DNA from: Chloroflexota bacterium | Lineage (GTDB): Bacteria > Chloroflexota > Dehalococcoidia > JACQUE01 | Direction: 5' to 3' | Assembly (NCBI GenBank): GCA_016210425.1 | Contig: JACQUE010000161.1 | Location: forward strand, 1 to 11,638 | DNA: 11,638 bases | In this document: positions 3,886 to 7,670 of the stretch, piece by piece | How positions within the stretch are numbered: position 1 is the first letter of the stretch | Layout: every line of letters begins with the position of its first letter | Position numbers and translations under genes: made by a program | The notes under the pieces: model-generated | Told to the model about the DNA's origin: nothing | Databases searched by the model: none | Seen by the model: the letters and a program-made list of their open reading frames with translations, nothing else

Positions 3886-5106
3886 CTAGGGCAGGTAGTC
3901 CAGCGGGTTCACCTCGACACCGTTCTTTGTAATACGAAAGTCCAGATGAGGGCCTGTGCTGCGCCCCGTGTTGCCGACCCTGCCGATAAGCTGCCCCCGC
4001 GCAACCTGCTCGCCAACTCCAACGTCGAACTCGGATAGGTGGCTGTACCTGGTTTTGTAGCCATCACCATGGTCGACGAGGATATACCACCCGTAGCTCC
4101 AGCCCAACTTCACGGTCTCCACTACCACGCCGTCCCTGGAGGCGTACACGGGCGTGCCATAGGGCGGGCTTATGTCGATGCCCTCGTGGTTCCAACTGAA
4201 GTAGGTGAAGATGGGGCCTGTCGTCGGCCAACTGAAGCCGCTGCCTCCGGATCGGGCCAGCGCGGGAGCAGGGGCCGGCTTGGGCTGAACCGCCGGTTGC
4301 TGGGCTGCCACAGCGACCTGTGCAGGCTGGGGCTGGGGCGCGACTTTGGGTTGAGGCTGGGGTTTTGGCTTGACCCGCCCACCCGGGATCATCAGCTCCT
4401 TCCCCACCACCAGGAAGTTGGGGTTACTGAGGCCGTTGCTACGGAAGCCGATGATAGCTTCCGGCTCAACCCCGTAGTCGTCGGCGATGGAAGCCAGAGT
4501 GTCCCCCTTTTCCACTTTATATATTACCCCGTCAATCGGTGGGATCTTCAGCTCCTGGCCCACCTTCACGAAGTCGCTGTTCGTGAGGCTGTTGGCCCAG
4601 ATGATGGTCTCCTGGGTAATACCGAACCTACGCCCAATGGCGGACAGGGTATCGCCGCCGGCAACGGTGTATACCGTTGGCCTTTTCTCCTCCGCCGGCT
4701 TCTCCTGGGCGGCTGGCTCCGCCGTTTTGGCCTCCGAAGGGGCCGCCGACATGGCCGAGACCAGGAAGTTTGGCTCCTCTTGGCTGGTCTTGTCGAAGGT
4801 TATCTGCAGAGGGTTCTTGAGGTAGGCCTGGCTATCGTTGGGGCCCAGGCTGGCGAGACGGTGGATGTACCAGTTCACATAGCGGCCTCCGACGCGGCCT
4901 CCAGCAGGTGTGCTTGAGGCTGAGGAAGCCCTGGAAGCCACCAAGGCGTAGCCAACGGCTAAGGTGAGGATCATAGCGTGGACAACGTAGCGGCTGAGTG
5001 CGAAGGAATGTACCGTCCTGCCTGCGCCGACGGTAGCCCGGCGTTGAGGATAGAGTGGCCTGATAAGAGGATGGGGGGCCGGCAGACCAATAGTGCTCCC
5101 GCCTAT
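3886..5106 (-). CDS. Membrane-anchored LysM/M23 peptidoglycan peptidase, copy distal to rho, altered metal site
   Basis: Counted from ATA at 5106-5104, this is a 406-residue envelope protein. It has a cytoplasmic N-terminus with SRYVVH, one membrane segment (about 40-60), two LysM peptidoglycan-binding repeats (about 145-189 and 195-241), a Pro/Gln/Lys-rich linker (about 244-284) and a C-terminal M23 domain (about 293-400). The M23 family cleaves peptidoglycan cross-bridges or stem peptides outside the membrane. Zn-site residues His307 and Asp311 (HEGID) and His356 (SHL) are present. The final HxH motif reads H-L-D: His387 is kept, but the second His, a zinc ligand, is Asp389 (codon at 3940-3942 on the minus strand, GAC where the sister gene has CAC). 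Activity may be lost or altered. The first ordinary start is ATG 4974, inside the membrane segment and without a Shine-Dalgarno sequence. The frame conserved with the sister gene continues 44 codons further to ATA, preceded by AGGAGG. A start at CTG 5085 is the alternative. Confidence 0.85.
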   Translation of the reverse strand: MGGSTIGLPAPHPLIRPLYPQRRATVGAGRTVHSFALSRYVVHAMILTLAVGYALVASRASSASSTPAGGRVGGRYVNWYIHRLASLGPNDSQAYLKNPLQITFDKTSQEEPNFLVSAMSAAPSEAKTAEPAAQEKPAEEKRPTVYTVAGGDTLSAIGRRFGITQETIIWANSLTNSDFVKVGQELKIPPIDGVIYKVEKGDTLASIADDYGVEPEAIIGFRSNGLSNPNFLVVGKELMIPGGRVKPKPQPQPKVAPQPQPAQVAVAAQQPAVQPKPAPAPALARSGGSGFSWPTTGPIFTYFSWNHEGIDISPPYGTPVYASRDGVVVETVKLGWSYGWYILVDHGDGYKTRYSHLSEFDVGVGEQVARGQLIGRVGNTGRSTGPHLDFRITKNGVEVNPLDYLP

Positions 5107-5112
5107 TTCAGA

Positions 5113-5118
5113 CCTCCT
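5113..5118 (-). promoter_or_regulatory. Shine-Dalgarno sequence deciding an ATA start (distal peptidase)
   Basis: AGGAGG on the minus strand is separated by six bases (TCTGAA) from the in-frame ATA at 5106-5104. Strength and spacing are the same as for the bioY ATG. No ATG, GTG or TTG lies in frame between the upstream TAA and ATG 4974. Confidence 0.6.
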
Positions 5119-5212: not shown

Positions 5213-6403
5213 TTAGGGCAGGTAGTCCAAGGGGTTAACCGGTACCCCGTTTTTAATTACCTCGAAGTGCAGGTGTGGCCCAGTGCTCCGGCCGGTGGTT
5301 CCGACGAGACCGATGAGCTGACCGCGTGTGATGCGGTCGCCGGGGCTCACCGCAAACTGGCCCAGGTGCCCATACCTGGTGCGGAAGCCATCGCCATGAT
5401 CCACCAGCACATACCAGCCATAGCTCCAGCCCAGCTTCACCTCCTCCACTACCACTCCGTCTCCCGCTGCGTACACGGGCGTGCCGTAGGGCGGACTAAT
5501 GTCGATGCCTTCATGTCCATCCTCACCGAAGTAGGTGAAGATAGGGCCAATAGTAGGCCAGCTAAACCCGCTGCCTCCGGCCCTCACCGGAGCCGGCTTG
5601 GGCGGAGTGGCCGGCAGTTTCGGCTGCTCGACCGCCGAGGCGCCGGCCCTCGCGCCAGGTATTACGATCTCCTTACCCACCACAAGGAAGTTAGGGTTTA
5701 TGAGCCCGTTCGGCCTATACGCTATTATAACCTCCGTGTCAACCCCATAGGCAGCGGCGATGGACGCTATATTCTCGCCTTTTACAACCTTATGGACCAC
5801 GAGAGCGCTGCCGGCGGCGCTGCCGCCGGAAGGTATCTTCAACTCCTGGCCGACCCTGAGCATGTTGGCGTTTGCCAGGCCGCTGGCCGCCACGATAGCC
5901 TGCTCGCTAACGTTGAAGCGACGGGCTATCTCGGATAGTGTCTCACCCTGAGCAACCACGTATGTCGCCGGCTGTGCCTTGGCTTCTTTCTGGGCCTCCG
6001 GGTTCGCCCCAGGATCGCTAACCTTCGCAGGCTCTGCTGTAGCCGCGGCCAGTCCCGCCGCATAGCCGCCGTCGCTCTCGCGCTTGCCTACCGTCATAGC
6101 CAACTGGTTTTTCAGGTAGGCCTGGCCATCGTCAGGGGCAAGACTCGCCAGGCGATGAATGTACCAGTTGATATAGCTGCCTCCTCCGCGGCCGCCCATT
6201 ACTGGTGATGGAGTCGCGGAGTGGACTCTACTGGCTATCAGCGCAAAGCTCACTGCGAAGACCGTTATCAACCCGTGAATCAGATATCGACTGACAGGGA
6301 ACGAGTGTATCGATCTGACCAGTATGGGCGGCGCTTCGCGGCTCGATTGTAGGAGCTTGGGGCCCGGACTCAGGGCCGGCAGACAATAGTTGCTCCCGCC
6401 TAT
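5213..6403 (-). CDS. Membrane-anchored LysM/M23 peptidoglycan peptidase, copy next to rho
   Basis: Counted from ATA at 6403-6401, this is a 396-residue protein with the same plan as its neighbour. It has an N-terminal segment ending IHSFPVSRYLIH, one membrane segment (about 40-60), a conserved NWYIHRLASL region, two LysM repeats (about 146-190 and 201-249), a short Pro-rich linker and an M23 domain to the end. The catalytic set is complete: His297 and Asp301 (GHEGID), His346 (GHL), and His377 and His379 (GPHLHFE). It should be an active peptidoglycan peptidase held at the outer face of the cytoplasmic membrane. The only ordinary start codon is TTG 6271, mid-helix and without a Shine-Dalgarno sequence. 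The conserved frame runs on to ATA 6403, one base after the rho stop TGA, with AGGAGG formed by the last rho codons. This predicts translation coupled to rho. It could be confused with NlpD- or EnvC-like activators, but the intact zinc site argues for an enzyme. Confidence 0.9.
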   Translation of the reverse strand: MGGSNYCLPALSPGPKLLQSSREAPPILVRSIHSFPVSRYLIHGLITVFAVSFALIASRVHSATPSPVMGGRGGGSYINWYIHRLASLAPDDGQAYLKNQLAMTVGKRESDGGYAAGLAAATAEPAKVSDPGANPEAQKEAKAQPATYVVAQGETLSEIARRFNVSEQAIVAASGLANANMLRVGQELKIPSGGSAAGSALVVHKVVKGENIASIAAAYGVDTEVIIAYRPNGLINPNFLVVGKEIVIPGARAGASAVEQPKLPATPPKPAPVRAGGSGFSWPTIGPIFTYFGEDGHEGIDISPPYGTPVYAAGDGVVVEEVKLGWSYGWYVLVDHGDGFRTRYGHLGQFAVSPGDRITRGQLIGLVGTTGRSTGPHLHFEVIKNGVPVNPLDYLP

Positions 6404-6404
6404 C

Positions 6405-7670
6405 TCATACCTCCTTACTCAGCGTGGCGAGGAACTCGGCGTTATTCTGCGTTCGCGCGAGACGCTCCAGGACACGCTCCGTGGCGTCGGTAGAGGGCGA
6501 GTTCGTGGCGATCATGGAGACCATTCGCCTCAACAGCCAGACCTGACGGAGGGTGGTTTCGTCAAGGAGAAGCTCTTCCCGGCGTGTACCACTACGCTGG
6601 ATGTCGATGGCGGGGAAGATGCGACGCTCCGACAGCTTCCGGTCCAGGTGAAGCTCCATGTTGCCGGTGCCCTTAAACTCCTCGTAGATCACGTCGTCCA
6701 TGCGGCTGCCCGTATCGACGAGGCAGGTAGCGATGATCGTCAGACTGCCACCTTCCTCAATATTGCGGGCGGCGCCGAAGAAGCGCTTGGGCGGATAGAG
6801 GGCGCCGGGGTCGATACCGCCGGAGAGGGTGCGTCCGCTGGTGGGCAGGGCCAGGTTGTAAGCCCTGGTCAGACGCGTGATGCTGTCCAGCAGGATAACC
6901 ACGTGGCGCTTGCCCTCCACCAGGCGCTTCGCCCGCTCCAGGCCCATCTCCGCCGCCTTGACATGGTCTTCCACCGGCTCATCGAAGGTGGAGCTTATGA
7001 CCTCACCCTTGACCGAGCGCTTCATGTCTGTTACTTCCTCCGGACGCTCGCCGATGAGGCAGACCATGATGTGGATCTCCGGCCGGTTTAAGGCTATGCC
7101 GTTGGCGATATGCTTGAGGAGGATCGTTTTGCCCGCCTTAGGTGGCGACACGATGAGCCCGCGCTGGCCGCAGCCGATGGGGGCGATGAGGTCGATGAGC
7201 CGGCAGGAGAGCTCAGTCCCCTTGGTCTCCAGCCTAAGGTGTTCCGTGGGGAAGATGGGCGTGAGCCTATCGAAGTAGGGCCGCTGCTTGGCGACCTCCG
7301 GGTCCAGCCCGTTGACCGCCTCAACGCGAAGCAGCCCGTAATAGCGCTCGTTGTCTTTAGGAGGGCGAACCTGCCCGGTTACCATGTCGCCGGTGCGCAA
7401 GGCAAAGCGGCGGATCTGGGACTGGGAGACATAGACGTCGTTCAGGCTCGGCATCAAGCTCTCCTGGCGGAGGAAGCCGTAGCCGTCGTCTACGATCTCT
7501 AGGACGCCCCCCCGGAAAAGGTGACCTTGCTGCTCTGACTGCGCTTGCAGGAGGCGGAAGATGAGGTCCTGCTTCTTGAGGCTGCTGTAGCCGGAGATTC
7601 CGAGCTCTTTGGCTACTTCCATTAGATCTTCACGGGTTCTTGTTTCCAATTCTGCGATATTGATATTCAC
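6405..7670 (-). CDS. rho: Transcription termination factor Rho
   Basis: Rho is the hexameric RNA-dependent ATPase that ends transcription at untranslated, C-rich RNA. The 421-residue product matches the E. coli length (419). It has the N-terminal helical Rho_N domain (about 1-45, [22 protein letters not shown]), a cold-shock-like RNA-binding domain (about 50-120, with DGYGFLR and [11 protein letters not shown]), and a RecA-type ATPase core. The core contains Walker A SPPKAGKT (175-182), the catalytic stretch [10 protein letters not shown] (about 207-216), Walker [11 protein letters not shown] (about 257-266), and the secondary-site region [11 protein letters not shown]. It has no long inserted N-terminal region, unlike some actinobacterial forms. 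The start is GTG 7670, six bases after GGAG. It lies 112 bases after tal with a promoter between, and one base before the next gene's apparent ATA start. Confidence 0.97.
6410..6415 (-). promoter_or_regulatory. Shine-Dalgarno sequence inside the end of rho, before an ATA start
   Basis: AGGAGG is formed by the last codons of rho (AAG GAG GTA TGA). Six bases (TATGAG) separate it from ATA at 6403-6401, which begins one base after the rho TGA. The arrangement suits termination-reinitiation by ribosomes finishing rho. An in-frame TGA twelve bases upstream of the AGGAGG-ATA unit confirms that the peptidase frame cannot begin inside rho. Confidence 0.6.

Follow-up and report, generated by a model that had tools for sequence, protein, structure and literature searches.

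A probable AUA start codon and proposed translational brake in LysM-M23 wall peptidase genes of Dehalococcoidia

Two tandem peptidase genes downstream of rho

The window is a stretch of 11,638 nucleotides from a Chloroflexota bacterium of the class Dehalococcoidia (GCA_016210425.1, contig JACQUE010000161.1), and its subject here is the start site of a gene for a membrane-anchored LysM-M23 peptidase (peptidase A) that lies on the minus strand directly behind rho. The gene of the transcription termination factor Rho (6405..7670, minus strand; 5' end as in the list of open reading frames) ends with the stop TGA at 6407-6405, and the Shine-Dalgarno site AGGAGG (6410..6415, minus strand) sits within its last codons. 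The site is followed by the six-base spacer TATGAG (6409-6404) and by ATA (6401..6403, minus strand), which is proposed as the start codon of peptidase A from the sequence and the comparison with relatives. The pairing energy computed for AGGAGG at spacing 6 is -17.5 kcal/mol. The ATA lies one base after the rho stop and 4 bases past the last rho codon. The peptidase A frame is closed upstream by an in-frame TGA (6421-6419) and contains no ATG, GTG or TTG between this stop and the TTG at 6269..6271 (minus strand). An earlier note on this DNA had placed the start at the ATA because of the AGGAGG-N6-ATA arrangement and the missing canonical codons; its coordinates and both observations hold on the minus strand. 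An ATG (6408-6406) also overlaps the rho stop as ATGA, and its two-codon frame ATG AGA TAG ends over the ATA (6408-6400). This ATG is treated as chance, being 1 base from AGGAGG and absent in the sister gene, which reads CTG AAA TAG there.

Translated from the ATA, peptidase A has 396 residues (5213..6403, minus strand) comprising a basic tail, an RxxxH motif, a membrane helix, LysM and peptidase M23. The frame is intact over the 396 codons and the conserved M23 residues are present. The protein scores above the Pfam cut-offs for PF01551 (119 bits) and for PF01476 (81 bits, two LysM stretches). The M23 domain occupies residues 296-391 (5231..5518, minus strand) and includes HxxxD and HxH residues (H297, D301, H377, H379), which we take to be those of the peptidase M23 motif.

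The motif R39-xxx-H43 (6275..6289, minus strand), placed directly 5' of the helix, is invariant in 14 aligned proteins, namely peptidase A and its sister B from the window, eleven class homologues and the protein of locus L028. The TTG, the first canonical start codon of the frame, is residue 45 and therefore lies past H43, so translation must start upstream of 6271. The earlier note had reached the same view from the conservation of the preceding stretch in the sister gene, and this comparison was reproduced: SIHSFPVSRYLIHG in A and TVHSFALSRYVVHA in B, with mostly synonymous changes at the identical residues. The public gene call P0001 starts at residue 69 of A (ATG 6199) and lacks the helix. 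Starts at TTG 6271 and at the ATG 6199 implied by P0001 were both ruled out, since they are downstream of the invariant RxxxH. Judged by eye, gene calls of relatives that start within or past the helix include P0006, P0010, P0011, P0017-P0022 and P0024.

The tandem sister gene B, taken from the list of open reading frames and its translation, encodes a LysM-M23 protein of 406 residues from its own ATA (3886..5106, minus strand). It repeats the AGGAGG-N6-ATA arrangement in frame, which the earlier note had not mentioned: AGGAGG is at 5113..5118 and the proposed ATA start at 5104..5106, both on the minus strand, with a site of -16.5 kcal/mol. A 24-base pattern built from both copies, AGGAGGTNTGARATAGGCGGGAGC, occurs only at these two places in the genome when up to 3 mismatches are allowed. 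Sister B also has no canonical start before RxxxH, as its ATG 4974-4972 comes after the motif, and it exceeds the Pfam cut-offs with 114 bits for PF01551 and 86 bits for PF01476. Since B is preceded by A and not by rho, the site is more than a by-product of the last rho codons. The HxH motif near the C-terminal end reads HLD in B versus HLH in A. In view of the role of that residue in peptidase M23, sister B may be catalytically altered, inactive or a non-enzymatic partner.

With ATH standing for ATT, ATC or ATA (AUH in the messenger), AGGAGG-N5-7-ATH is found at 109 places in the genome against 88 for the reversed pattern, which is near chance. A single instance consequently proves little and the comparative evidence carries the claim; for the same reason, further genes with AUH starts could not be listed in this way.

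The start codon in relatives

The gene was found with query A1 in 144 of 393 genomes of the class (E <= 1e-60), and a rho query matched in 88 of 100 class relatives (E <= 1e-100). The family sampled has a membrane anchor, LysM and peptidase M23, and often stands after rho. The sample covers most of the listed places, but neither those with a match starting deep within the model nor the majority of those ranked low. From 207 unique frames, 78 belonging to unrelated genome_contigs loci were left out (all but L026 and L028), giving 129; five more frames were dropped for having no helix, for lying at a contig edge or for having no N-terminal match, giving 124 genes. Removal of the three genes from outside the class left 121 class rows, which represent 108 genomes in 20 families and in which one gene of genome G021 is present twice (L203, L289). 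Families and loci are cited below by their f and L numbers.

Each gene was classed by the start-like codon (ATG, GTG, TTG, CTG, ATA, ATT or ATC) with the best site at a spacing of 5-9 bases, and a site of -9 kcal/mol or better at 5-9 bases was called strong. These energies were computed from a stacking table and a ribosomal RNA tail, and some wobble steps are approximate. The stretch searched for canonical codons begins at the opening of the frame, or 70 codons before the helix, and ends 8 codons short of it.

The codon with the best site is ATH in 62 of the 121 rows (29 ATT, 26 ATC and 7 ATA), from 57 genomes and 14 of the 20 families. Thirty of these rows, in 12 families, contain no ATG, GTG or TTG in the stretch examined. 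The spacing is 6 in 32 of the 62, and the median site is -13.0 kcal/mol among rows that were themselves selected at -9 or better. The ATH codon is placed 34-42 residues 5' of the helix (10-90% range), and an in-frame stop lies at most 10 codons upstream of it in 35 rows. A first line of the form I-x-G-[TP]-[LI] is common to many genes of f2, f16, f25, f31 and f60 and occurs in L123 (f22) as well. In four f2 genes (L241, L242, L251, L252) the homologous first codon is TTG, six bases after a strong G-rich site, and several other f2 genes with ATH at -6 to -8.4 kcal/mol were scored as weak. The 30 ungapped overlapping ATH pairs comprise 13 ATC/ATC, 9 ATC/ATT, 6 ATT/ATT and 2 ATA/ATA; as ATH was the selection criterion, these counts show only interchange within ATH. 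Over the same pairs, 839 of 3360 sites are substituted behind the codon, half the rate seen upstream of the Shine-Dalgarno site, where 638 of 1260 are.

Strong sites are concentrated before ATH. Among the 5210 in-frame codons before the helix in the 124 genes, 65 of 197 ATH codons follow a strong site as compared with 396 of 5210 for all codons (Fisher 1.8e-26). The counts for single codons are ATT 30/69, ATC 28/94, ATA 7/34, ATG 1/49, GTG 1/54, TTG 7/49 and CTG 9/118; TTA is also high at 7/18, three of the seven lying in a leader shared within f33 (L266, L276, L288). The strongest site of a row is followed by an in-frame ATH in 54 of the 121 rows (null mean 8.0, maximum 21 in 2000 draws) and, when one gene per family is taken, in 10-13 of 20 (null 1.5). 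A further test was restricted to 99 rows by excluding the members of the A1 alignment and the loci inspected before the idea arose, though these rows had been inspected, after the idea, before the test itself. The strongest site precedes an in-frame ATH in 45 of the 99, against a null mean of 6.5 and a highest null value of 17 among 3000 draws, and strong sites stand before 54 of 156 ATH, 0 of 41 ATG and 0 of 44 GTG codons. No excess of ATG, GTG or TTG behind the strongest site was found in this test (4 of 99 versus a null of 5.3).

Rho and generic open frames show no excess of ATH. At 30 rho loci a strong site precedes 4 of 57 ATH (p 0.45) and 6 of 22 ATG codons, and the best codon is ATG in 6, GTG in 3, TTG in 1, CTG in 1, ATH in 2 and none in 17. 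In 368 long open frames of the sampled loci, ATH has no enrichment (39/619 versus a base of 5.8%, p 0.33), and ATG is at 37/238. The infC gene of initiation factor 3 (IF3) served as positive control: in 26 of 30 class loci, taken from 58 listed places, ATH has the best site among the start-like codons and stands 5-7 codons ahead of the IF3_N match, with L311, L319, L320 and L322 as exceptions.

Judged from these comparisons, the class-wide ATH codon behaves like a start rather than an inner isoleucine. The proposal that peptidase A starts at AUA is supported by the sister gene and by ATH behind a strong site in homologues of 13 further families of the class. The earlier note had suggested reading this codon in orthologues near rho; ATH is the commonest there, a few genes have TTG or CTG, and the large family f33 mostly has ATG behind a weak site. 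The position of the start, its codon class, the strong site and their conservation appear well supported.

Several points weigh against this interpretation. In 59 of the 121 rows the best codon is not ATH: 46 have no strong site (25 of them from f33, mostly with a weak-site ATG), 8 have CTG and 5 have TTG. Of the ATH rows, 32 also contain ATG, GTG or TTG in the stretch, though the classing rule implies that the site of these codons is the weaker one. Both the -9 kcal/mol cut-off and the 5-9 spacing were chosen after a first look at the data, and the rows are related to each other, so that the p-values overstate independence. Behind the codon, third positions are substituted only slightly more often than the other two (262, 257 and 320 for the three positions). 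Chance can produce isolated cases, since even rho is scored with ATH as its best codon at 2 of 30 loci. The relatives compared belong to the same class or phylum and none to the family of the window genome, so that support for the ATA of peptidase A comes from the paralogue and from other families. Homologues of other classes have no ATH excess (2 of 28 versus a null of 1.45), and in them TTG follows a strong site in 7 of 33 codons. A phylum search of 32 frames (31 from other classes) gave as best codon at -9 kcal/mol or better ATH in 3, TTG in 8, GTG in 2, ATG in 1 and none in 18.

Some families carry further features around the start. In f33 the ATG sites are weak (median -2.35 kcal/mol; 23 of 27 rows have such an ATG). 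The strongest Shine-Dalgarno-like site lies 71-82 bases before the ATG in 16 of the 27 rows, in varying frame and often with GAGC...GCTC; examples are L133, L143, L262, L266, L276 and L288. This distant site is possibly a relic of an old start or an RNA element. The GAGC...GCTC stretch is seen in f16, f60, f25, f22 and f33. The sequence GGC ACG CTC AGC CC behind ATH is unchanged even at synonymous sites in 10 of the 12 genes from f16, f60 and f25 (e.g. L108, L125 and L246; exceptions L210 and L245), and L123 (f22) has GGC CCA CTC AGC with GAGT/ACTC replacing GAGC/GCTC. The near-invariant synonymous sites in f16, f60 and f25 suggest a constraint at the RNA level as well. The RNA folds around the start vary from family to family. 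In f23, a CTG six bases after AGGGGG or TGGGGG resembles a start in L009 and L207; L011 has TTG.

An upstream, same-strand rho gene no more than 1200 bases away accompanies 41 of the 62 ATH rows and 44 of the 59 others, and contig ends hide further cases; none of the nine f16 rows has one. The distance from the last aligned rho codon ranges from 4 to 455 bases, and direct adjacency to the rho stop is found in the window and in f46 (L014). A search of a plasmid collection gave two short M23 matches.

Proposed initiation at AUA and its possible control

When the initiator tRNA reads AUH, the third position is mismatched. IF3 acts against initiation complexes of this kind, and strong Shine-Dalgarno pairing partly makes good the weakness of the codon. 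An AUU start reportedly limits translation of E. coli pcnB (Binns and Masters 2002), a likeness in the codon, in another gene and phylum. The IF3 gene is present in 54 of 60 class genomes, the window's own (G000) included, and the infC of this genome (L307) appears to begin with ATA. The peptidase genes resemble infC in having a near-cognate AUH start with a Shine-Dalgarno site that is widely conserved, and differ in their product, which is a cell-wall enzyme, whereas infC encodes the fidelity factor itself and is autoregulated.

Three published sources bear on such starts. In E. coli, elevated IF3 lowers initiation at non-canonical codons (PMC2268962, citing earlier work). Streptomyces sigR has a GTC start that is repressed by IF3 (PMC5472188). 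Like the peptidase genes it is distinct from infC, with a non-canonical start behind AGGAGG that is mis-annotated in available streptomycete genomes and conserved in the genus. On the other hand, sigR has GTC and belongs to one genus (PMC5472188), whereas the present starts are proposed from sequence comparison and are AUU, AUC or AUA in many families. In S. aureus, ccpN (AUA), cvfC1 (AUU) and citZ (AUA) have AUH starts with extended Shine-Dalgarno pairing, and infC has AUA. Non-canonical sites yield about 10% of AUG in poor medium, and ccpN reaches as much as 30% when the medium is rich (PMC13009471). These are other genes; cvfC1 is conserved among staphylococci and citZ in one strain lineage (PMC13009471). 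No paper on the start of this peptidase gene or on a class-wide case was found in the open-licence literature.

It is very probable that peptidase A and sister B start at AUA; in the preferred reading, this near-cognate start of the infC type is kept as a translational brake. In the proposed mechanism, both proteins would initiate at the AUA six bases past the perfect AGGAGG, and the strong pairing would compensate part of the weakness of the codon. The outcome would be a low but steady amount of a membrane-anchored LysM-M23 wall enzyme. Its output, like that of infC in these genomes, would follow the stringency of IF3 towards near-cognate codons. As the start lies one base behind the rho stop, ribosomes leaving rho may also restart at peptidase A and feed it; the longer rho distances elsewhere argue against such a restart as a general mechanism. 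We infer the low yield, the IF3 dependence, the restart after rho and the purpose of the arrangement. The reading as a brake fits the sequence evidence, and its link to IF3 draws on what is known of infC, sigR and the three S. aureus genes; on that analogy IF3 would probably sense the peptidase start. In much of the class AUU, AUC or AUA, with a few UUG and CUG, and hardly ever AUG, stand behind the strong sites, so the weakness looks selected. Two observations fit selection for low initiation of a wall-cutting enzyme: AUG is avoided where the site is strong, and the ATG codons of f33 have weak sites. The near-cognate codon is conserved, and AUG avoided, within the class; this pattern is found neither in f33 nor outside the class.

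The most serious competitor accepts the AUA start and denies its regulation: expression would be fixed at a low level, or a weak codon merely tolerated behind a strong site, with no response to IF3. This falls only a little short of an even chance. All the sequence evidence for the start is equally compatible with it. The low S. aureus yield in poor medium, about 10% of AUG, together with the lack of a medium effect on the AUU of cvfC1 (PMC13009471), also speaks for it, as does f33, where a weak-site ATG is an alternative route to a low rate. Against it, elevated IF3 lowers non-canonical initiation in E. coli (PMC2268962) and IF3 represses the GTC of sigR (PMC5472188); an AUA start would accordingly be expected to respond to IF3 to some degree.

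Other readings place the start elsewhere. Between A and B the similarity is greater around the site than in the codons after it, 16 of the 27 f33 rows retain AGGAGG and GAGC...GCTC at 71-82 bases from the ATG, and synonymous sites are near-invariant in f16, f60 and f25; all this would suit a conserved RNA element, with translation beginning further downstream without a Shine-Dalgarno site. Such an element is nevertheless improbable, because peptidase A has no canonical start before the invariant RxxxH, the link between ATH and the site is in frame and absent for other codons, and the folds differ between families. Initiation at CTG 6382, the eighth codon from the ATA, is more improbable still. 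CTG CCG GCC is common to A and B, its site is -9.2 kcal/mol at spacing 9 in both, and CTG is start-like in two f23 genes (L009, L207). That site is, however, much weaker than those of the ATA codons (-17.5 and -16.5 kcal/mol), CTG has no link to strong sites across the family (9/118, p 0.55), and the bases invariant between A and B include AGGAGG-N6-ATA. Finally, the window assembly is 54% complete in 266 contigs, and the true codon might be an ATG misread in sequencing or assembly, or the gene might be dead. This is scarcely credible given that the paralogue has the same codon, ATH recurs in 62 rows and the frame is intact; sequencing error was accordingly rejected on the paralogue and the 57 genomes. 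A frameshift from rho was also rejected, since sister B has the site with no rho upstream and the rho distances vary.

Possible meaning of the proposed weak start

The protein itself is an ordinary LysM-M23 peptidase. It matches known endopeptidases of this type (PF01476, PF01551) in domain content and, for A, in HxxxD and HxH, and differs from them in the near-cognate start and, for B, in HLD instead of HLH. The mechanism would be of the infC, pcnB, sigR and ccpN kind. To our knowledge, few bacterial genes besides infC have AUU, AUC or AUA starts. By sequence comparison, the peptidase gene is an unusually widely conserved new case in this small group; in the reports consulted, the conservation described for the other cases stays within a genus or a strain lineage (PMC5472188, PMC13009471). 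If the start is as proposed, public gene calls of the peptidase family often miss the membrane anchor. Comparing Shine-Dalgarno strength codon by codon is also a means of detecting near-cognate starts without experiments.

More tentatively, the wall peptidase could be a second class-wide member of an IF3 circuit, reading out initiation fidelity or the amount of free IF3 relative to ribosomes; this is possible but rather doubtful. If it were true, wall cutting would be tied to the state of translation through a site kept in at least 14 families and often adjoining rho. The conserved start, if real, would provide a natural test of what near-cognate starts are for, and it would mean that a weak start can persist under selection over long times.

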